NCBI RefSeq assembly: GCF_000014285.2
Contig: NC_008343.2
Location: 1,080,501-1,144,500, forward strand
Origin: Granulibacter bethesdensis CGDNIH1
Lineage (GTDB): Bacteria; Pseudomonadota; Alphaproteobacteria; Acetobacterales; Acetobacteraceae
Reading direction: 5' to 3'
Length of the DNA: 64,000 nt
The position numbers and the translations under genes are program-made. Numbering within the stretch: the stretch's first letter is position 1; the number at the start of each line of letters is the position of its first letter. The notes below the pieces were generated by a model. It was not told the DNA's origin. It made no database searches and saw only the letters and a list, made by a program, of their open reading frames with translations. Below, in pieces: positions 18,210-31,567 of this stretch.

Positions 18210-18286
18210 GGCGGGTGTAGCTCAGATGGTAGAGCGCCAGGTTGTGGTCTTGGATGTCGCGGGTTCGAGTCCCGTCGCTCGCCCCA
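18210..18286 (+). tRNA. tRNA-His (anticodon GTG)
   Basis: The cloverleaf folds by eye. The acceptor stem GCGGGTG (18211-18217) pairs with CGCTCGC with two G-T pairs, and the anticodon stem CCAGG/CTTGG encloses loop TTGTGGT with anticodon GTG at 18244-18246. The T loop is TTCGAGT between GCGGG and CCCGT. G-1 (18210) faces C73, the histidine identity pair, and the 3' CCA is encoded. Confidence 0.96.
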
Positions 18287-18358
18287 GTGCCCTTTCATGC
18301 TGCATCAGCAGCATAGTCCCGGCAATATCATCATTGATGGATGCGTGAGGCCTTACCG

Positions 18359-19222
18359 ATGCGTATCGCTGTGCTGGGTACCGGAATCATGGGGCGGTGG
18401 ATGGCCTGCCGTCTTGCCGATGCCGGGCATGAAGTCACAGTCTGGAATCGCAATCCTGTCCGAGCGGCTGAACTCGGTCTGCCGGTGGCCACATCAGCCC
18501 CTGATGCGGCACATGGGGCCGATGTCGCGTTGCTGATGGTGTCCGACGGTCCGGCCTGCGATGCGGTGCTGGAGACCGGGTTTGTCGATACTATGGCACA
18601 GAATGGCACCGTGCTGGTGATGAGTTCCATCGAGCCATGGCGTGCCCGTGCCCAAGCAAAGAAAGTATCGCCCCGGTTTTACGTCGATGCACCTGTTTCC
18701 GGCGGAGAGGGCGGTGCGCGGAATGGCACCCTCGCCATCATGGCGGGGGGAGAGGAGGCGGTGCTGAACCGTCTGGCTCCGGTTTTTGCCGCGCTGGGCC
18801 GCATGACCAGAATCGGTGATATCGGGGCCGGTCAGCTTGCGAAACTGGCCAACCAGTTGATCGTCGGTGTGACGATCGGGGCGGTGTCGGAGGCTTTCGT
18901 GCTGGCCGAAGCCGGTGGCGCTTCCCCTGCGCGGTTCAGGGATGCCGTGGCGGGCGGTTTTGCCGATAGCCGCATCCTGCGTGAACACGGGCAACGCATG
19001 CTGGATGAGAATTTTGTTCCGGGTGGAAAATCCGCGATCCAGCTCAAGGATCTGCGCATGATTCTGCAAGAGGCGAAAATGCTCGGGCTTTCACTGCCGA
19101 TGACGGAAGCGGCGGCCGCTCTCTACCGTGCTCTCTGCGAAGCGGGGGACGGCGATCTGGATCATGCGGGACTCATCCGGCAGATACGGCGCGACAGTGC
19201 ATTGCCGGGAACCGTTCAGTAG
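18359..19222 (+). CDS. NAD(P)-dependent 3-hydroxyisobutyrate/tartronate-semialdehyde reductase-type dehydrogenase
   Basis: The protein is a beta-hydroxyacid dehydrogenase of 287 residues. The Rossmann motif MRIAVLGTGIMGRWMA, the substrate block DAPVSGGEGGARNGTLAIMAGG and the catalytic Lys in GQLAKLANQLIVG are all present. Family members reduce tartronate semialdehyde, 3-hydroxyisobutyrate, succinic semialdehyde or glyoxylate; sequence alone does not decide. ATG 18359 starts the Rossmann strand directly; an ATG at 18341 would add six residues. A hydroxypyruvate isomerase gene ten kilobases away makes a glyoxylate/glycerate role conceivable. Confidence 0.82.
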   Translation: MRIAVLGTGIMGRWMACRLADAGHEVTVWNRNPVRAAELGLPVATSAPDAAHGADVALLMVSDGPACDAVLETGFVDTMAQNGTVLVMSSIEPWRARAQAKKVSPRFYVDAPVSGGEGGARNGTLAIMAGGEEAVLNRLAPVFAALGRMTRIGDIGAGQLAKLANQLIVGVTIGAVSEAFVLAEAGGASPARFRDAVAGGFADSRILREHGQRMLDENFVPGGKSAIQLKDLRMILQEAKMLGLSLPMTEAAAALYRALCEAGDGDLDHAGLIRQIRRDSALPGTVQ

Positions 19223-24609: not shown

Positions 24610-24996
24610 TCAGCTGCCGTAAAGTGTATGAGGGTCGATCAGTGGTTCTGTCAGGGTGGTGACGGTGCCATCCTTGCCCATAGCCCGATAGAAACAGCTC
24701 CGGCGTCCAGTATGGCAGGCAACCCCGGGCTGATCGACCAGCACCAGCAGGGCATCCCCGTCACAATCGACCCGTAACTCGATCAGCGTCTGTACTTGTC
24801 CGGAGGTCTCGCCCTTGCGCCACAGCCCGTTCCGGCTGCGGCTGAAATAGCAGACCCGACCCGTCGCCAACGTTTCCTCTATAGCTTCCCGGTTCATCCA
24901 GGCCAGCATCAGCACCTCGCCAGTGTCATGCTGCTGGGCGATAGCAGTGACGAGGCCCTGATCGTTGAAGCGAATAATGTCGAACACGTCGCTCAT
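24610..24996 (-). CDS. hisI: Phosphoribosyl-AMP cyclohydrolase
   Basis: HisI opens the purine ring of phosphoribosyl-AMP in histidine synthesis. The 128-residue monofunctional protein has VLMLAWMNREAIEETLATG, YFSRSRNGLWRKGETSGQVQ, the metal-site DCDGDALLVLV and the zinc cysteines in GVACHTGRRSCFYR. Its ATG overlaps the metC stop by 4 bases, so it is translated as the third gene of an sseA-metC-hisI operon, away from other his genes. Identification is secure. Confidence 0.96.
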   Translation of the reverse strand: MSDVFDIIRFNDQGLVTAIAQQHDTGEVLMLAWMNREAIEETLATGRVCYFSRSRNGLWRKGETSGQVQTLIELRVDCDGDALLVLVDQPGVACHTGRRSCFYRAMGKDGTVTTLTEPLIDPHTLYGS

Positions 24997-26207
24997 CGCT
25001 GCATGGCATCCAGAGCCCGTGTCAGGTCGGCGATCAGATCCTGCGGATCTTCCAGACCGATATGGATGCGTACGGTTGGTCCTTCGAGCGGAATGTCATG
25101 GCTGCGATGGATGGTGCCGTAGGTCGGCATGATCAGGCTTTCATAGCCGCCCCAGGAGGCACCCAGACCAAAAATCGAGAGAGAATCGATGAAACGGTCG
25201 CTCTGCTCTGTCGTGAAGGAACTCTTGAACTCCACACCGAACAGGCTGGGTGCACCCGTGAAATCCCGTTTCCACATCTCATAACCGGGATCGCCCGGCA
25301 GGGCTGGGTAGAGTACGCGCTGAATCTCGGGCCGTTCGCTCAGGAAGGTAGCGATATGCAATGCGCTCTGCATCTGGTGGTTCATCCGCACCGCCATGGT
25401 GCGCAGACCGCGCAGGGCCAGCCAGCAATCATCGGGGCTGGCATATTGCCCCAGCATCCCGGCCGTGCTGCGCACCCGGCGCCAATGTGCTTCGTCATTG
25501 ACAGTGATAGAGCCGAGCAAAAGATCACTATGGCCACCGACATATTTCGTCAGCGCCTGAATCGAGAGATCGATTCCATGCTGGAATGGCTGAAAGTGAC
25601 GAATGCCCCAGGTATTATCGAGCATTGTCACCGCCCCGTGCTGATGCGCCAGAGCGCAAAGCGCTGCAACATCCTGCACCTCGAAGGTGTGGCTGCCGGG
25701 GCTTTCCAGAAACAGCACTCTGGTTTCCGGCCTGAACAGAGGGGCGAGTTCATGTGCAGTCGCCGTAGCGGTATAGAAAGTTGTTTCTATACCGAATTGT
25801 TTGAGCAGACCTTCGCAAAAATCGCGTGTCGGGCCATAAACCATATCCGGAACCAGCAGGTGATCGCCTGCGCTCAGATAACCGAGTAAAGGCACTGTAC
25901 AGGCTGCCAGACCGGAGGATACGATCTGGCAATGCGTGCCGCCTTCGATTTCGGCGATGGCATTTTCCAGCGCGAAATGAGTTTCCGATCCGTTCAGCCC
26001 GTAGGTCAGGGACTGTTCCAGCCAGCGCTTTCCCTCACGACGTCGCGTCGCTGTATCGGGTTGCAGGACCGTCGATCCGCGGATGAGGGGTGGGTTCACG
26101 ACACCGGTGTATTTTGCCACCGGTCGGCCAGCCCGCACCAGTCTGGTATCGGGATGTTCATTGGGCGCATCAGATGGGGTGCGCGGTCCCGGACGATTAT
26201 ATTGCAT
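24993..26207 (-). CDS. metC: Cystathionine beta-lyase
   Basis: MetC cleaves cystathionine to homocysteine, pyruvate and ammonia. The PLP Lys sits in SIQALTKYVGGHSDLLLG, the cofactor-stacking Tyr and ring-binding block in VPDMVYGPTRDFCE, and the family N-terminus in NPPLIRGSTVLQPD. The 404 residues from ATG 26207 match the family; the upstream in-frame extension lies inside sseA. It overlaps sseA by 11 bases and hisI by 4. A cystathionine gamma-lyase role is less likely, given closer resemblance to alphaproteobacterial MetC. Confidence 0.9.
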   Translation of the reverse strand: MQYNRPGPRTPSDAPNEHPDTRLVRAGRPVAKYTGVVNPPLIRGSTVLQPDTATRRREGKRWLEQSLTYGLNGSETHFALENAIAEIEGGTHCQIVSSGLAACTVPLLGYLSAGDHLLVPDMVYGPTRDFCEGLLKQFGIETTFYTATATAHELAPLFRPETRVLFLESPGSHTFEVQDVAALCALAHQHGAVTMLDNTWGIRHFQPFQHGIDLSIQALTKYVGGHSDLLLGSITVNDEAHWRRVRSTAGMLGQYASPDDCWLALRGLRTMAVRMNHQMQSALHIATFLSERPEIQRVLYPALPGDPGYEMWKRDFTGAPSLFGVEFKSSFTTEQSDRFIDSLSIFGLGASWGGYESLIMPTYGTIHRSHDIPLEGPTVRIHIGLEDPQDLIADLTRALDAMQR

Positions 26208-27051
26208 CACGCTGCTTCTGAGTATCGGGGCGGCTGCCCCATTCCGACCATGAGCCATCATAAATGGCTGCTGCCTCCAGGCCCGCCACCGCCATAGCAA
26301 AGCTGAGCAGGGAGGCTGAAACGCCGCTTCCGCAGCTTGTAATCACTGGTTTGCTGCCATCAATACCGGCGGCAGCAAAACGCTGACGCAAAGTCTCGGG
26401 CGGCAACAGAGTACCATTGGCTGCCAGAACCTGATTGAAAGGCAGATTGAGACTGCCGGGAATCCGGCCGGATTCCACGCCCGGGCGCGGTTCCGCAGCA
26501 GCGCCGGCAAAGCGCTCCGCGCTGCGGGCATCCAAGACCAGCTCGGCCCCGGATATCAGATTATCCTTGATATCGCCGATGCCTCGTACGTATTTCGGGC
26601 GCCAGTCGGTCAACAAGGCAGATGCAGCGGGTAGGGGAGCAATCTCGCCACTTTCGGTCGGGCCACCGGCCCGAACCCAGGCATCAAGCCCGCCATCCAG
26701 TACGGCAGCCTCCAGACCAAACAGCCGGAACAGCCACCAGCCGCGGGCAGCCCACATCATGCTGTTCTGATCATAGAAAACGACCCTGCTGTTGTTGGAC
26801 ACGCCAAGTGCGCCAAGCTGGGCCGCGAACTGGCCGGGTGGGGGAACCATATGCGGCAGATTGGTCTGTTGATCGGCAATGGCGTCGATATCGAAATAAA
26901 TAGCCGTGGGAATATGGCTGCGCCTGTAGTCATCATGACCGTTGCGGCCCTGATTGGGTAAAAATTTTGTTGCGTCGAAAATGATCAGATCAGCCGCGCC
27001 CATCGACTCTCGTAGCCACTCAGCGTCGACCAAAACAGGCAGTGTTGCCAT
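26197..27051 (-). CDS. sseA: 3-mercaptopyruvate sulfurtransferase (rhodanese family)
   Basis: The two-rhodanese-domain protein of 284 residues transfers sulfur from 3-mercaptopyruvate. The N-terminal domain shows FDATKFLPNQGRNGHDDYRRSHI. The C-terminal catalytic loop reads SCGSGVSAS, the CGSGV-type loop of mercaptopyruvate sulfurtransferases rather than thiosulfate-specific rhodaneses. ATG 27051 starts at the usual place; its A overlaps the TAA stop of a decayed Nudix gene upstream (TAATG). With metC and hisI it forms a minus-strand operon. Confidence 0.92.
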   Translation of the reverse strand: MATLPVLVDAEWLRESMGAADLIIFDATKFLPNQGRNGHDDYRRSHIPTAIYFDIDAIADQQTNLPHMVPPPGQFAAQLGALGVSNNSRVVFYDQNSMMWAARGWWLFRLFGLEAAVLDGGLDAWVRAGGPTESGEIAPLPAASALLTDWRPKYVRGIGDIKDNLISGAELVLDARSAERFAGAAAEPRPGVESGRIPGSLNLPFNQVLAANGTLLPPETLRQRFAAAGIDGSKPVITSCGSGVSASLLSFAMAVAGLEAAAIYDGSWSEWGSRPDTQKQRDAI

Positions 27052-27590
27052 TACTCGTCCCTTCCGAGCCACTCGCGTATAATCCGGTCACGTTGTGCTG
27101 CCAGCCAGAGCAGGGCAACCGTCGTTACGACATTGCTGAACTGACCGGGGATGGCGGCCTCAATCGCCTGACGAGCATGAACGATTCGGATACGGATGTC
27201 CTCGTTTTCAGCTCTCAGACTTCCTGTCCTGGTATGGATCAGCCTTTTCAGGGTGACACCGGGCTCCTCCAGACATTCACAACGGGCGATTTCCGCCGGA
27301 ATGGCTCATACCGGCAGGAATTTCGGTCATGACCGGGTCAAGACTGGCGGACAGTGCCGCAATCCGTATCTATTCGATCAGAATGAGGGTATCGCCTGTG
27401 GGGATTATGGTCGAACTGCGGATGCCTTGCCACGTCGCCAGATTTCCCAATTCTGCAGGCTGAACCGTGCGCCATCGAAGCGCCGGTTGAGGAATGAGAT
27501 CGGCTCCACAGCATGGCGCCCTTTCCAGACGATACTGTGGAATTTAATTCTTGTATCCGCGTGGGAGGGTAGGCTGAGAAAATTGTCTGG
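27051..27590 (-). pseudogene. Nudix hydrolase (ADP-ribose pyrophosphatase type), degenerate
   Basis: Pieces of one Nudix protein are found in order but in different frames on the minus strand. FHSIVWKGRHAVEPISF, LNRRFDGA and NWEIWRRGKASA lie around 27420-27550. Then comes IPTGDTLILIE, stopped by TAG at 27370-27372 where a Gln is expected, and DPVMTEIPAGM (to 27307). After a frameshift follow PAEIARCECLEEPGV, a damaged Nudix box in which the conserved Arg before Glu is Cys, then ENEDIRIRI and the C-terminus IEAAIPGQFSNVVTTVALLW ending at the TAA that overlaps sseA. About 40 residues before ENEDIR seem to be missing. No usable start remains in the C-terminal piece. The gene probably once led the sseA operon. 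Confidence 0.85.
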
Positions 27591-27601
27591 CATGCCTTTG
27601 C

Positions 27602-27698: not shown

Positions 27699-28553
27699 CT
27701 ACCCCAGCATACTCCGAAGAATTTTAGCTCCCTCATGACCTTTGATTGAATTTTTCCAGCACATTTCGGCCATTTTTTGATGGGACACCACAATTTCCTC
27801 AGCAGAAGAAATGATCGCTACCCCTTCTTGAAGGTCGGGTGCGGTATCCGTGTGAAACGGATTGAGGACAAGCTGTATTGTTGAATGAGACCGTGCGATC
27901 ACCATACGGCTGTTGATTTCCCCAGGTGACAGTAGTCCGAACTGCAATCCCATTGGCTCCGTTTCCAGAAGGTTGGCCATGTGCTCAACTTCCCGTCTTG
28001 CCACGACAAGGGCGGATGCTTTCAGTTCTTCCGATAAATCGGGTCCGCCAATACCCTGTTGCAGCATAATAGAAATGGCAGAAGGGGATAACATTGCAAT
28101 GAGGTTGGGTCTTCGGGCGGCATAGGCTGCACGCCTTTCTTTCAGCGTCTTTACAAGCTGCTCCACGTAAAGCCGGTCTGCTTTCGATCGTCCGGCATGG
28201 CGGGATATGATGGATTCGGCCAGAAACGCTTCTGTTTCATCCAGCATCGTCAGATGGCACAGCGCATCTCCGACAAACTGCAATTGGGCAGCATTTTCCT
28301 CAATCTGGCGGGCACGTTCGAAATATCCGACAGGCCGGCTTTGATACTCAATGCTGACACCCAGCAGGGAAAGAGGAGAAACCTGCAGGAGTTCAGCCAG
28401 CCTCTGCACGGTATCCAGTTTGATGACTTCACCTTTTTCATATCGGTACAGCGCGGCTCTTGAGACACCCAGCCGTGCTGCTATCTCCTCTGCGCGTAAT
28501 CCAGACTCCAGGCGATAGGCACGCAGGCGCTGACCAATTTCCGAGAAACGCAT
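27699..28553 (-). CDS. XRE-family transcriptional regulator
   Basis: The 284-residue protein has an N-terminal helix-turn-helix (residues about 3-60): IGQRLRAYRLESGLRAEEIA, ARLGVSRAALYRYEKGEV, LAELLQVSPLSLLG. A long C-terminal helical/sensor region follows, with no recognised metal or ligand motif. ATG 28553 is preferred; a TTG two codons upstream is possible. It follows the hydroxypyruvate isomerase gene on the same strand after an AT-rich 225-base spacer with dyad symmetry, which suggests autoregulation and control of its neighbour. The ligand is unknown. Confidence 0.82.
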   Translation of the reverse strand: MRFSEIGQRLRAYRLESGLRAEEIAARLGVSRAALYRYEKGEVIKLDTVQRLAELLQVSPLSLLGVSIEYQSRPVGYFERARQIEENAAQLQFVGDALCHLTMLDETEAFLAESIISRHAGRSKADRLYVEQLVKTLKERRAAYAARRPNLIAMLSPSAISIMLQQGIGGPDLSEELKASALVVARREVEHMANLLETEPMGLQFGLLSPGEINSRMVIARSHSTIQLVLNPFHTDTAPDLQEGVAIISSAEEIVVSHQKMAEMCWKNSIKGHEGAKILRSMLG

Positions 28554-28632
28554 AATCAATGTCGGGTGTCCTGCTACGCTTTGAAAGAATAATGCTATAA
28601 AGAGCTAATAGGGGCTACAGAAAGATTTTAAA

Positions 28633-28658
28633 AGTATATCAAGTTTTAAAACTATACT
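28633..28658. promoter_or_regulatory. AT-rich dyad upstream of the XRE regulator gene
   Basis: AGTATA (28633-28638) and TATACT (28653-28658) form an inverted repeat with a 14-base gap, and a 12-bp palindrome AGTTTTAAAACT (28642-28653) lies inside. The site is 80-105 bases before the regulator start, a plausible place for an autoregulatory operator. AT-rich DNA produces such dyads by chance, so this is tentative. Confidence 0.35.
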
Positions 28659-28705
28659 AAAATACGATATAAAAAAATGAGATTTAAAAACCAAAATTGT
28701 AACAA

Positions 28706-28727
28706 AAATAAGATAAAATACTTATTT
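28706..28727 (-). terminator. Weak AT-rich hairpin downstream of the hydroxypyruvate isomerase gene
   Basis: Seven-base perfect arms (AAATAAG / CTTATTT) enclose an 8-base loop about 52 bases after the stop. On the minus strand TTGTT follows. The stem has one G-C pair only, so termination is uncertain. Confidence 0.25.
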
Positions 28728-28778
28728 GTTTAAGTGTCTCTGGAAAGAATACATTTCTTAAAAACGTGTCCATGAAGC

Positions 28779-29558
28779 TTAAATTTTATAATTATCCCGC
28801 CACATCAGGCCATCTACTGTCGATGTTAACGGATTATATTCGCAGCTAATCCAGCCATGGTAGTTTTCATTTCTGATGATTGAGAATATCTCTGTCCATG
28901 AGATATTTCCGGTTCCAGGTTCATGACGGCCGGGAGTATCAGCGATCTGGATATGCCGTGTTTGGGGAAGCCATTTTCTCAGTGATTGTTCCCACATAGT
29001 GTCCGTTAAAAATAAATGATACAGATCAAGCTGAAGGCCAATATTAGGCATTCCTGTTAAGGAAATTATTCTTGAAGCTTGGTCTGCCGTTTTTAGATAG
29101 TAATTATTAATTGTCTGGATGCTGATGGGCTCGATCGTTATTGTTATGTTTGACTCTGCCGCAAGGCGGGCAGCCCATATCAGGTTTGAGACATAGCACT
29201 GTTCCATGGCGACATTGTCGTGGCTGGTTTCAGACAAGCCCGCCATGCAATGAATAAACGAACAGTTCAGTGTTCTGGCATAGCGTAGAGCCAGCAAAAA
29301 ACCTGCTCTGAACTCCTCTTGCCGGTGAGGAAGAGCTGCAAGACCCCTTTCGCCCTTCTCCCAGTTTCCTGCCGGAGCGTTGATAAGCACCATCTTCAGT
29401 CCGGTTTTTTTCAATATCGAGCCGATATGATCCGCTGGTACAGAGTAAGGAAAAAGACATTCCACACCTGAAAAACTGGCTGAAGCAGCTTGCTGAAAGC
29501 GTTCCAGAAAATCAAATTCAGTAAACAGAAAAGAAAGATTGGCGCAGAGAGACAACAT
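28779..29558 (-). CDS. Hydroxypyruvate isomerase-like sugar isomerase
   Basis: The 259-residue TIM-barrel protein (AP endonuclease 2 superfamily) matches Hyi/OtnI: MLSLCANLSFLFTEFDFLERF, VLINAPAGNWEKGERGLAALP, a Glu ligand in ITIEPISIQ, QLDLYHLFLTD, HIQIADTPGRHEPGTGNISW and a final Glu in GWISCEYNP. These enzymes interconvert hydroxypyruvate and tartronate semialdehyde, or act on 2-oxo-tetronates. The coding sequence and both flanks are visibly AT-richer than neighbouring genes, suggesting acquisition. It precedes the XRE regulator on the same strand; no glyoxylate carboligase lies nearby. Confidence 0.85.
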   Translation of the reverse strand: MLSLCANLSFLFTEFDFLERFQQAASASFSGVECLFPYSVPADHIGSILKKTGLKMVLINAPAGNWEKGERGLAALPHRQEEFRAGFLLALRYARTLNCSFIHCMAGLSETSHDNVAMEQCYVSNLIWAARLAAESNITITIEPISIQTINNYYLKTADQASRIISLTGMPNIGLQLDLYHLFLTDTMWEQSLRKWLPQTRHIQIADTPGRHEPGTGNISWTEIFSIIRNENYHGWISCEYNPLTSTVDGLMWRDNYKI

Positions 29559-29680
29559 GTCAGAAAAACCGTACCAGGATTTTGATATGGATCAACAACG
29601 AATTTTTGTTGGGATTAAAATTAAAACATCAACTCGGATGATGCGTTAAGTAATGAAGCGTTTGTAATGAACCGATGAAT

Positions 29681-29699
29681 TGTGAAAATTTGTTTCACA
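29681..29699. promoter_or_regulatory. Operator-like dyad upstream of the hydroxypyruvate isomerase gene
   Basis: TGTGAAA (29681-29687) and TTTCACA (29693-29699) form a perfect 7-bp inverted repeat with a 5-base centre. It lies about 125 bases before the start codon at 29558, within a 203-base AT-rich spacer. Its size and spacing resemble binding sites of dimeric regulators, but the cognate protein is unknown. Confidence 0.4.
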
Positions 29700-29742
29700 T
29701 GCTAGTTTCAAATTTATCCGGTTGATTTATTTTTGTGACAAC

Positions 29743-29759
29743 AAGTATAATTAATACTT
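29743..29759. promoter_or_regulatory. AAGTAT dyad at the end of ggt
   Basis: AAGTAT and ATACTT with a 5-base centre lie just after the ggt stop. The half-site AAGTATA also occurs in the dyad upstream of the XRE regulator gene. It could be an operator for the isomerase gene or a weak ggt terminator. Confidence 0.3.
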
Positions 29760-29761
29760 CT

Positions 29762-31567
29762 TTATTCTCCGTAAGGAATACCATCCCGCCGTGGATCGGC
29801 TGCTCCTGTCAGATGCCCGTCTGCTTTTTTGATAATCATGGAGAGACCTGAATTGAGCCTTATGATCGCAGGATGATGACCATACTGGAGCAGGCGATCA
29901 GCCAGTAAGGTGGCTTCAGTCCCTGCTTCCAGATCGGATTTCAGACCCGTTGTGCCGATATGGGGAGCCGAGATGGCCTGGGCAGGAGACAGGTTCCATC
30001 GCATGGACAGCAGCATGGCCTGACTGACATAGCTGATAATGTGGCCACCTCCGGGCGATCCGGTAACCATGTCGAGCTTTCCATTCTGATCCAGCACAAT
30101 GATTGGCGCCATGCTGCTGCGTGGTCTTTTGCCCGCCTGAACCCGGTTGGCAACAGGCTTACCTGCCTCTTCAGGCACAAATGCGAAATCGGTCAGTTCA
30201 TCGTTCAGAATAAATCCGTCAACCAAAAGCTTGGAGCCAAATACGTCTTGCACCGTGGTCGTCATGGACACGGCATTACCTTGCGCATCGACGATGCTGA
30301 TATGACTGGTACCGTGCTCCGGTTTTGGTGGCTGTGTACCCTGGGCGGGGGGTAGGTCGGGCATGGACCATGATGGATTGCCCGCCTCTACCGTGGAGGG
30401 CGCATGGCGGGGATGGATCATTCTGGCTCTTTGCCGGAGATAGGCCGGGTCGAGAAGACCGCGGAGTGGTATCTTTACAAAATCGGGATCAGCCAGAAAC
30501 AGGTTGCGATCTGCAAAGGCCAGGTGTTCGGCCTGAATGATCAGATCGGCCGCTTCGGCGCTGTCGGGGCGCAGATGCCGCAGATCGAAGCCCTCCAGCA
30601 TCGAGAGTATCTGCAAGACGGCGACACCTCCGGAGGAAGGCGGTCCCATGCTGCACACTGTCCGCATTTTGACAGGCATGCACAGGGCCGGGCGCTGACG
30701 GGGTTGATAGGAGGCCAGATCATCCATCGTCATGGTCCCGGAGGCCGGGCTTTGCCGGATCGCTGTCACAATGTCGGTGGCGATCCGACCGGTCAGCAAG
30801 GCATCTGCCCCTTTCTCGGCAACGCTCCGCATCGTTTCTGCCAGAGCGGGATTTTTTAATATGTAACCCGGCTCAGGAACTGAGCCATTGGGCAGGAAAT
30901 AAGTCCTTGCGGCTTCCTGTACCATCAAGCTGTTCTGTTCTTCCCGGATTTCCCGGCTCATCAGTGCAGAAACCGGAAAACCGTTTTCCGCCTGGGTAAT
31001 GGTGCTGGTAAACAAATCTTTCCAGAGCAGCTGCCCATGCAGCTTGTGCACAGCTTCGAGCATTCTCAGCGCGCCAGGTACCCCGACGGCGCGTCCTCCG
31101 ATTCCGGCGCTGTCCAGCGGGAGCGGTTTGCCGGTCGCATCCTGGAAAATGGTGGGGGGGATGGCGGCAGGGGCGGTTTCCCGTCCATCCCAGCTGGTAA
31201 CCTGCCGGGTGGCTGCATCGTAGTACAGCAGGAAGGCGCCTCCACCCAGACCGGAAGACTGAGGCTCCACCAGTGACAACATCGCCTGTGCGGTAACCGC
31301 GGCATCAATGGCATTGCCACCTGCTTTCAGCACATCCAATGCTGCCCGGCTGGCGAACGGGTTGGCCGTTACCACCATCATATGGGCGGCGGTTACATCC
31401 CGGGCCAGCGGAGGAAACGAATGAGGGGCGGAGGGCCGATGTGCGGGTGTCTCGGCGGCGAGGGAAAAAGGCATTATGAAAGCCACGCAGAACGCGAGCC
31501 GTGCCAGGCTTTGTTTTGTGAAAAACAGCCTGTCCCATACCTGCCGCAGTTTCCGTGTGACTGTCAT
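29762..31567 (-). CDS. ggt: Gamma-glutamyltransferase (periplasmic)
   Basis: GGT cleaves gamma-glutamyl bonds, chiefly of glutathione, and autoprocesses into two subunits. The 601-residue precursor has a basic N-terminus and hydrophobic signal segment (LARLAFCVAFIMPFSLAAE). The large-subunit block is GGNAIDAAVTAQAMLSLVEP with GLGGGAFLLYYD, and the processing/catalytic Thr lies in EHGTSHISIVDAQGNAVSMT. The oxyanion Gly-Gly is in TGSPGGGHIISYV. The start is only 15 bases from that of divergent yraN. Composition is normal, unlike the isomerase gene downstream. Confidence 0.93.
   Translation of the reverse strand: MTVTRKLRQVWDRLFFTKQSLARLAFCVAFIMPFSLAAETPAHRPSAPHSFPPLARDVTAAHMMVVTANPFASRAALDVLKAGGNAIDAAVTAQAMLSLVEPQSSGLGGGAFLLYYDAATRQVTSWDGRETAPAAIPPTIFQDATGKPLPLDSAGIGGRAVGVPGALRMLEAVHKLHGQLLWKDLFTSTITQAENGFPVSALMSREIREEQNSLMVQEAARTYFLPNGSVPEPGYILKNPALAETMRSVAEKGADALLTGRIATDIVTAIRQSPASGTMTMDDLASYQPRQRPALCMPVKMRTVCSMGPPSSGGVAVLQILSMLEGFDLRHLRPDSAEAADLIIQAEHLAFADRNLFLADPDFVKIPLRGLLDPAYLRQRARMIHPRHAPSTVEAGNPSWSMPDLPPAQGTQPPKPEHGTSHISIVDAQGNAVSMTTTVQDVFGSKLLVDGFILNDELTDFAFVPEEAGKPVANRVQAGKRPRSSMAPIIVLDQNGKLDMVTGSPGGGHIISYVSQAMLLSMRWNLSPAQAISAPHIGTTGLKSDLEAGTEATLLADRLLQYGHHPAIIRLNSGLSMIIKKADGHLTGAADPRRDGIPYGE

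Follow-up and report, generated by a model that had tools for sequence, protein, structure and literature searches.

The window considered here is a stretch of 64,000 nt from Granulibacter bethesdensis CGDNIH1 (Acetobacteraceae), in which an AT-rich segment carries a gene for a hydroxypyruvate-isomerase-like protein (hyi), followed by the gene of an XRE regulator. A preliminary description took the AT-richness as a sign of acquisition, and the question that the locus raises is whether the segment is a foreign island or a part of the inherited genome. The explanation that we regard as probable is that the region was inherited and is the partly eroded remainder of a gene neighbourhood common to the family, from whose operon the reductase gene has been lost and whose regulator would control itself through a box in its own promoter, and that it is not an acquired island. 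This reading is built on synteny, base composition, selection, motif enrichment and a predicted fold, from which we infer binding of the box, sensing of a ligand and autoregulation.

The isomerase gene and its base composition

The hyi gene (28779..29558, minus strand) is intact and AT-rich, and its product of 259 amino acids belongs to the hydroxypyruvate isomerase/2-oxo-tetronate isomerase family. In profile searches the protein matches AP_endonuc_2 and is hydroxypyruvate-isomerase-like, with scores below the curated cut-offs of both TIGR03234 (hydroxypyruvate isomerase; 292.3 bits, cut-off 353.45) and NF043033 (2-oxo-tetronate isomerase; 291.9 bits, cut-off 325). For two relatives with the operon, L070 and L074, the scores of hyi are 366.4 and 332.4 bits with the former model and 393.7 and 378.3 bits with the latter; the gene of L070 lies above both cut-offs and that of L074 above one. 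Residues E143, D178, Q204 and E240 of Hyi are invariant in an alignment of 24 sequences. We take these residues to be catalytic in TIM barrels of the Hyi/OtnI type, and the conserved acidic and metal residues of such barrels are present in the window protein, whose relatives in the PDB are 3ngf and 1k77. Within the window genus the dN/dS of hyi is 0.12 and 0.15, and the gene is under purifying selection.

The GC content of hyi (0.445) is the lowest among 39 long open reading frames of the window (mean 0.597, sd 0.037), and so is its GC3 (0.444; mean 0.658, sd 0.063); the XRE gene is second lowest, with 0.516 and 0.507, respectively. The set consisted of open reading frames, not confirmed genes, of at least 200 amino acids, taken longest first with overlaps below 100 nt. 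The GC content is 0.279 in the 219-nt spacer between hyi and XRE (28560..28778, minus strand) and 0.310 in the spacer between ggt and hyi (29559..29761, minus strand). The preliminary description was thus right that hyi and both spacers are richer in AT than the window and that the regulator gene follows the isomerase gene on the same strand. A search of Rfam gave no match between 27600 and 31600, promoter-like sites occurred at chance level and no terminator-like site was found.

The window genus is represented by three genomes, namely the window genome (G000), one closer to it (G157) and a sister genome (G100), and the AT bias is common to all of them. In these three loci the GC content of hyi is 0.106 to 0.145 below that of the locus; all 99 operon loci together give a mean difference of −0.011 (sd 0.026), and no locus outside the genus falls below −0.051. 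The AT bias of hyi is real and, among the loci examined, confined to the window genus. The hyi-XRE spacers of G000 and G100 agree in 86.6% of 201 aligned positions, compared with 65.5% of 177 aligned positions for the ggt-hyi spacer, the best-conserved part of which, within the genus, is the hyi-proximal one. This difference suggests constraint on the XRE promoter region, which the hyi-XRE spacer probably represents.

A neighbourhood common to the family

Synteny was studied in a sample of 200 genomes of the Acetobacteraceae, of which 156 gave a match to the XRE regulator and 155 a match to hyi. The counts refer to pairs on one strand and no more than 20 kb apart, taken from the 150 matches listed per query (XRE from 149 genomes, hyi from 139). 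Among these listed matches, at least 105 genomes carry hyi and XRE on the same strand of the same contig and at most 20 kb apart, and at least 104, that of the window included, have same-strand hyi-to-XRE pairs less than 3 kb apart. The conservation of the pair elsewhere, which the preliminary description had put forward as a check of its proposal, is therefore found. The gap between the two genes is about 1.0–1.3 kb in most pairs and 157–297 nt in 14, those of the window genus among them.

The surroundings of 148 XRE genes were surveyed, a partial match in G096 being left out. The tally comprises the 106 loci with at least 4 kb on both sides of XRE, each scored by its best match per query; 42 of the 148 loci stand outside it because a contig ends within 4 kb of the XRE gene. 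In 78 of the 106 loci hyi lies upstream of XRE and on its strand, and in none on the opposite strand. A tartronate-semialdehyde-reductase-like gene occurs on the XRE strand in 69 loci, sseA in 43, the gene for cystathionine beta-lyase (CBL) in 43 and a NUDIX gene in 18, and none of the four is ever on the other strand. All 69 loci with the reductase also carry hyi, and among the 78 with hyi the reductase is missing from nine, three of which are those of the window genus. With TIGR01505, the reductases of three relatives score 374.1, 388.8 and 395.8 bits, all above the cut-off of 340.75. Census and profile scores together point to a wider unit of hyi, tartronate semialdehyde reductase and XRE, with sseA and the cystathionine beta-lyase gene downstream in 43 of the 106 loci. 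On the strand opposite XRE, a gene for an AI-2E-type transporter is present in 71 of the 106.

The genes hyi and XRE belong together, and the pair is real and old. No empty site such as would mark an acquired island was seen, hyi occupying the same place in those 78 family loci. Acquisition, which the preliminary description had deduced from the AT-richness, is not supported, since the two genes are neighbours across the family and only this genus shows the AT bias.

Probable erosion in the window genus

Downstream of XRE, and like it on the minus strand, the window carries a broken NUDIX gene (27054..27593), an sseA-like gene for a 3-mercaptopyruvate sulfurtransferase (26197..27051; 233.9 bits, below the cut-off of 250) and the cystathionine beta-lyase gene (24993..26246; 438.9 bits, cut-off 365.9). 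Situated between XRE and sseA, the NUDIX gene is whole in G100 (216 amino acids) and broken in G000 and G157. Upstream of hyi, again on the minus strand, lies ggt (29762..31567), the gene for gamma-glutamyltransferase; it stands directly upstream of hyi only in the window genus (three of 106 loci). In two other loci of the 106, a ggt match is found farther from hyi.

The reductase gene is missing beside hyi in the window genus, and no match over the reductase cut-off of 340.75 bits was found in the genome of the window itself. The best match there, at 235.9 bits, is a tartronate-semialdehyde-reductase-like paralogue (18341..19222, plus strand), which does not adjoin hyi; it could supply the missing reductase. 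Some 9.5 kb separate the paralogue from the locus; next to it is a tRNA-His gene (18211..18286), at a distance of about 10 kb, and ARAGORN detected no other tRNA gene in the window. For glyoxylate carboligase, the best match in the same genome reached 319.7 bits, compared with a cut-off of 711.2.

The regulator and its predicted fold

The XRE gene (27699..28559, minus strand) encodes a Cro/C1 HTH (residues about 1–65) and a predicted phospholipase-D-like (PLD-like) C-terminal domain; its ATG at 28553 agrees with the start in relatives. A score of 51 bits with PF01381 (HTH_3; gathering cut-off 23) places the protein among the XRE (Cro/C1 HTH) regulators, and across 33 sequences the HTH (the first 65 residues) hardly varies. 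None of the 23 Pfam families listed for this protein is specific to the C-terminal part, and the TrmB models are absent from these 23 as well as from the best 25 of 44 for the alignment.

The AlphaFold model of the regulator (mean pLDDT 86.5, pTM 0.74), in which the C-terminal domain was not predicted separately, matches PLD-fold chains over residues 62–284. With Foldseek the best E-value for a PLD chain was modest, at 3.5e-04 (SauUSI; TM 0.41 by query length). VIA-align gave Z values of 12.0 for SauUSI, 11.9 for NucT, 10.9 for Nuc, 10.4 for TrmBL2 and 10.1 for TrmB, all above the best Z of 7 to 8 that is usual for models lacking a clear match. The catalytic motif of PLD enzymes, HxKxxxxD (HKD), occurs in none of the 33 sequences. 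The C-terminal domain, which is fused to the Cro/C1 HTH and lacks the HKD motif, is predicted to be PLD-like. Since the modelled protein joins a PLD-like fold to an HTH, it may work like TrmB, in which an HTH is combined with a PLD-like sensor.

Outside the family, homologues of the regulator were detected at 1e-20 in seven of 288 other genomes of a class sample that contained at least three further genomes of the window's family. Among the matches listed for nine stretches around these homologues (9–12 kb; one flank below 1 kb in L104), none was to hyi, sseA, CBL or the reductase. In another family of the class, there are two regulator homologues per genome (L098/L099; L101/L102) with differing neighbours. 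A search for related loci with XRE as the query found none.

Candidate operators

In the preliminary description, dyads of AAGTATA/TATACT before both genes had been read as a shared signal. On both strands of the window, AAGTATA occurs twice (28632 and 29743), once per spacer; 0.94 occurrences are expected, and two were reached in 21 of 100 shuffles. The dyad upstream of XRE (28632..28658) is not above chance in its spaced form AGTATA-N7-TATACT, with two matches elsewhere at three mismatches and 2.55 expected. The second dyad (29743..29759) is a short palindrome adjoining the ggt stop codon, 2 nt beyond it and about 185 nt from the start of hyi. Of inverted repeats within 30 nt, the two spacers have in common the 5-mers AGTAT and AACAA and no 6-mer; among 1000 shuffled spacer pairs, 392 shared an inverted 5-mer and 14 an inverted 6-mer. 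Both dyads are kept in G157; in G100, an 18-nt gap deletes one half of the XRE-side dyad and the palindrome at 29743 is not conserved. On the grounds of chance-level counts and of this loss of the dyads in G100, AAGTATA operators were rejected.

An unsupervised motif search in 136 XRE upstream regions of the family (137 after thinning, less the window genus) returned a different motif, the box GTCTCAgAAt, with a log-likelihood of 310.8; two shuffled sets gave 40.8 and 56.6. With a threshold of 11 bits, the box is found in 83 of 148 XRE upstream regions, compared with 2.2% of 740 shuffles; the site counts err on the high side, since most of these regions had also served to train the matrix. From the other 65 family loci the box is absent at that threshold. 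Its median position is 67 nt before the XRE start. The box is asymmetric, one orientation being favoured in 64 of the 83 cases, and a palindromic form, which reached no more than 132.9 and 113.9 where the asymmetric one reached 310.8, was discarded. It precedes XRE in 55 of 89 regions with hyi and the reductase upstream, in 7 of 15 with hyi alone, in 20 of 41 with neither and in one of three with the reductase and no hyi match. Upstream of the neighbours themselves it is rare or absent (hyi 1/98, reductase 0/89, sseA 0/37, CBL 0/14, ggt 0/2). The transporter gene has it in 7 of 47 upstream regions, and these sites may lie in a divergent spacer common with XRE. None of nine upstream regions of outside-family homologues reached 11 bits (best 10.1), and the best matches in the three spacers of the window genus fall short of significance (shuffle p 0.29, 0.23 and 0.17).

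We regard the box as a candidate autoregulatory operator of XRE or else as the site of another factor. Its occurrence upstream of XRE and hardly ever of hyi would fit autoregulation and does not fit dyads common with hyi. Of the self-controlled module of the preliminary description a weaker version is left: across the family a box precedes XRE but is scarcely seen before hyi, and in the genus of the window it falls short of significance.

Several individual sites were also considered. A match in the window, GTGTCTCTGGAAAGAATA (28734-28751), fell from 9.3 bits with an early matrix to 5.3 bits with a better one and was dropped; ATATCAAAAT, which stands before hyi and is kept in the genus, was too weak to be accepted as a drifted box. 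The exact sequence GTCTCNGAATC has two matches in the genome of the window, neither of them near hyi or XRE (reversed control, none), and no regulon was deduced from exact matches to the box. One exact GTCTCTGAATC (C1:891919; L313, about position 1500) occurs in that genome in a spacer upstream of an open reading frame whose product resembles MtdB; nothing was concluded from this one site.

Origin of hyi and competing explanations

The branch that leads to the hyi genes of the window genus is very long, at 1.54 and 1.75 changes per column, and the composition of these genes is odd. A quick tree of 94 rows, for which 96 operon hyi were thinned to 48 (45 used) and the named loci to 46, places them outside the operon clade; a tree in which they are constrained to join that clade gains 17.9 log units over the free quick tree, a difference that is not significant (AU p 0.805). 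A careful tree of 45 rows omitted 15 outgroup and three operon rows that were long or misplaced, together with six named Acetobacteraceae rows, and kept the first 16 remaining outgroup rows and 26 hand-picked operon rows. In it, the hyi of the window genus branches off between the operon group and the outside group and sides with the outside rows (support 94/76); a placement nested in the larger operon subgroup improves the tree by 4.2 log units, again not significantly (AU p 0.665). In the XRE tree, the genus lies 1.55 from the nearest row, the largest such distance among other rows being 0.89; the corresponding values are 1.20 and 1.20 in the SSEA tree and 1.19 and 0.90 in the CBL tree.

These branches can be read in two ways. 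If the segment 28560-29761 were foreign, the ancestor of the genus would have exchanged its original hyi, or hyi and the reductase gene together, for a distant hyi at exactly the same place upstream of XRE. Such an event would account for the lowest GC content in the window and for a bias limited to the genus, and it agrees with the position of the long branch in the free trees, with the careful-tree support and with an identity to Pseudomonas hyi (up to 47%) that is as high as that to the hyi of the family. However, the position and orientation of hyi are those of the family, the constrained and nested trees are the better ones (although neither significantly so), and the bias is common to three genomes. 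Moreover, hyi is not alone in its divergence, as in their own trees the XRE and CBL sequences of the genus likewise lie beyond all other rows and SSEA equals the farthest. Given the synteny, drift in place is the simpler of the two readings, and we consider replacement unlikely.

As to regulation, control of hyi and XRE together by XRE bound to AAGTATA dyads upstream of both genes is hardly credible; the occurrence of one site per spacer and the retention of both dyads in G157 are outweighed by chance-level counts, by the loss of the dyads in G100 and by the near absence of the family box upstream of hyi. A promoter or activator site for another factor, with XRE not being the binder of GTCTCAgAAt, is a better candidate, though still a somewhat unlikely one. 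The asymmetry and preferred orientation of the box would suit such a site, as would the lack of an 11-bit match upstream of the nine outside-family homologues and its lack of significance in the window genus despite a conserved HTH. On the other hand, the box precedes XRE with and without the hyi and reductase genes and hardly ever precedes the neighbours, and the HTH is nearly invariant, all of which speaks against this alternative.

Under the preferred reading of an inherited neighbourhood with an autocontrolled regulator, the ancestral order would have been [hyi - tartronate semialdehyde reductase] - XRE regulator - (NUDIX) - [sseA - cystathionine beta-lyase]. The operon of the window genus lacks the reductase gene, the NUDIX gene is broken in two of the three genomes, and hyi would have drifted to low GC while retaining the residues that are invariant in its relatives. 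The XRE protein would bind DNA through its nearly invariant Cro/C1 HTH, and the PLD-like C-terminal domain, lacking the PLD catalytic motif, would sense a small molecule. In much of the family, XRE would control its own promoter through the GTCTCAgAAt box, about 50–120 nt upstream of its start.

Relation to known systems and significance

In E. coli, gcl-hyi-glxR constitutes the glyoxylate pathway. The operons of the family likewise place hyi beside a tartronate semialdehyde reductase (all three reductases tested score above the TIGR01505 cut-off); unlike in E. coli, the window genome has no glyoxylate carboligase over the cut-off and the reductase is absent from the operon. The regulator, as modelled, resembles archaeal TrmB and TrmBL2 in combining a DNA-binding domain with a PLD-like C-terminal domain, and its fold matches PDB 2f5t, 3qph and 5box with Z values of 10.1, 9.6 and 10.4, respectively. 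It differs from them in having a Cro/C1 HTH in place of the DNA-binding domain of TrmB and in being bacterial rather than archaeal. TrmB binds sugars, according to a review of TrmB (PMC4158304). A paper on BzdR describes an XRE HTH fused to a C-terminal sensor with an enzyme fold, that of shikimate kinase (PMC3602430); the window regulator would follow the same plan, its predicted fold being PLD-like where that of BzdR is of the shikimate-kinase type.

In the literature, among the matches listed and with few subscription papers covered, no XRE regulator with a PLD-like domain is described, nor is hyi with XRE in Acetobacteraceae or sseA/CBL with XRE. The regulator family may be undescribed, a negative result of this kind being weak evidence of novelty.

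The neighbours of the regulator act on hydroxypyruvate (hyi and tartronate semialdehyde reductase), on its sulfur analogue 3-mercaptopyruvate (sseA) and on cystathionine. A speculative idea, which we think has only a slim chance of being correct, is that the Acetobacteraceae possess a regulator family in which a Cro/C1 HTH is joined to a catalytically dead PLD-like sensor that responds to 3-substituted pyruvates; if true, the regulator would balance keto acids derived from serine and cysteine. The locus illustrates that a striking island of base composition can be an old, eroding neighbourhood, and its interest lies in the regulator family and the box rather than in the island. The fold predicted for the sensor is unusual, and a candidate operator and metabolic neighbours that are conserved come with it, so that the ligand of this family of one-component regulators can be put to the test.
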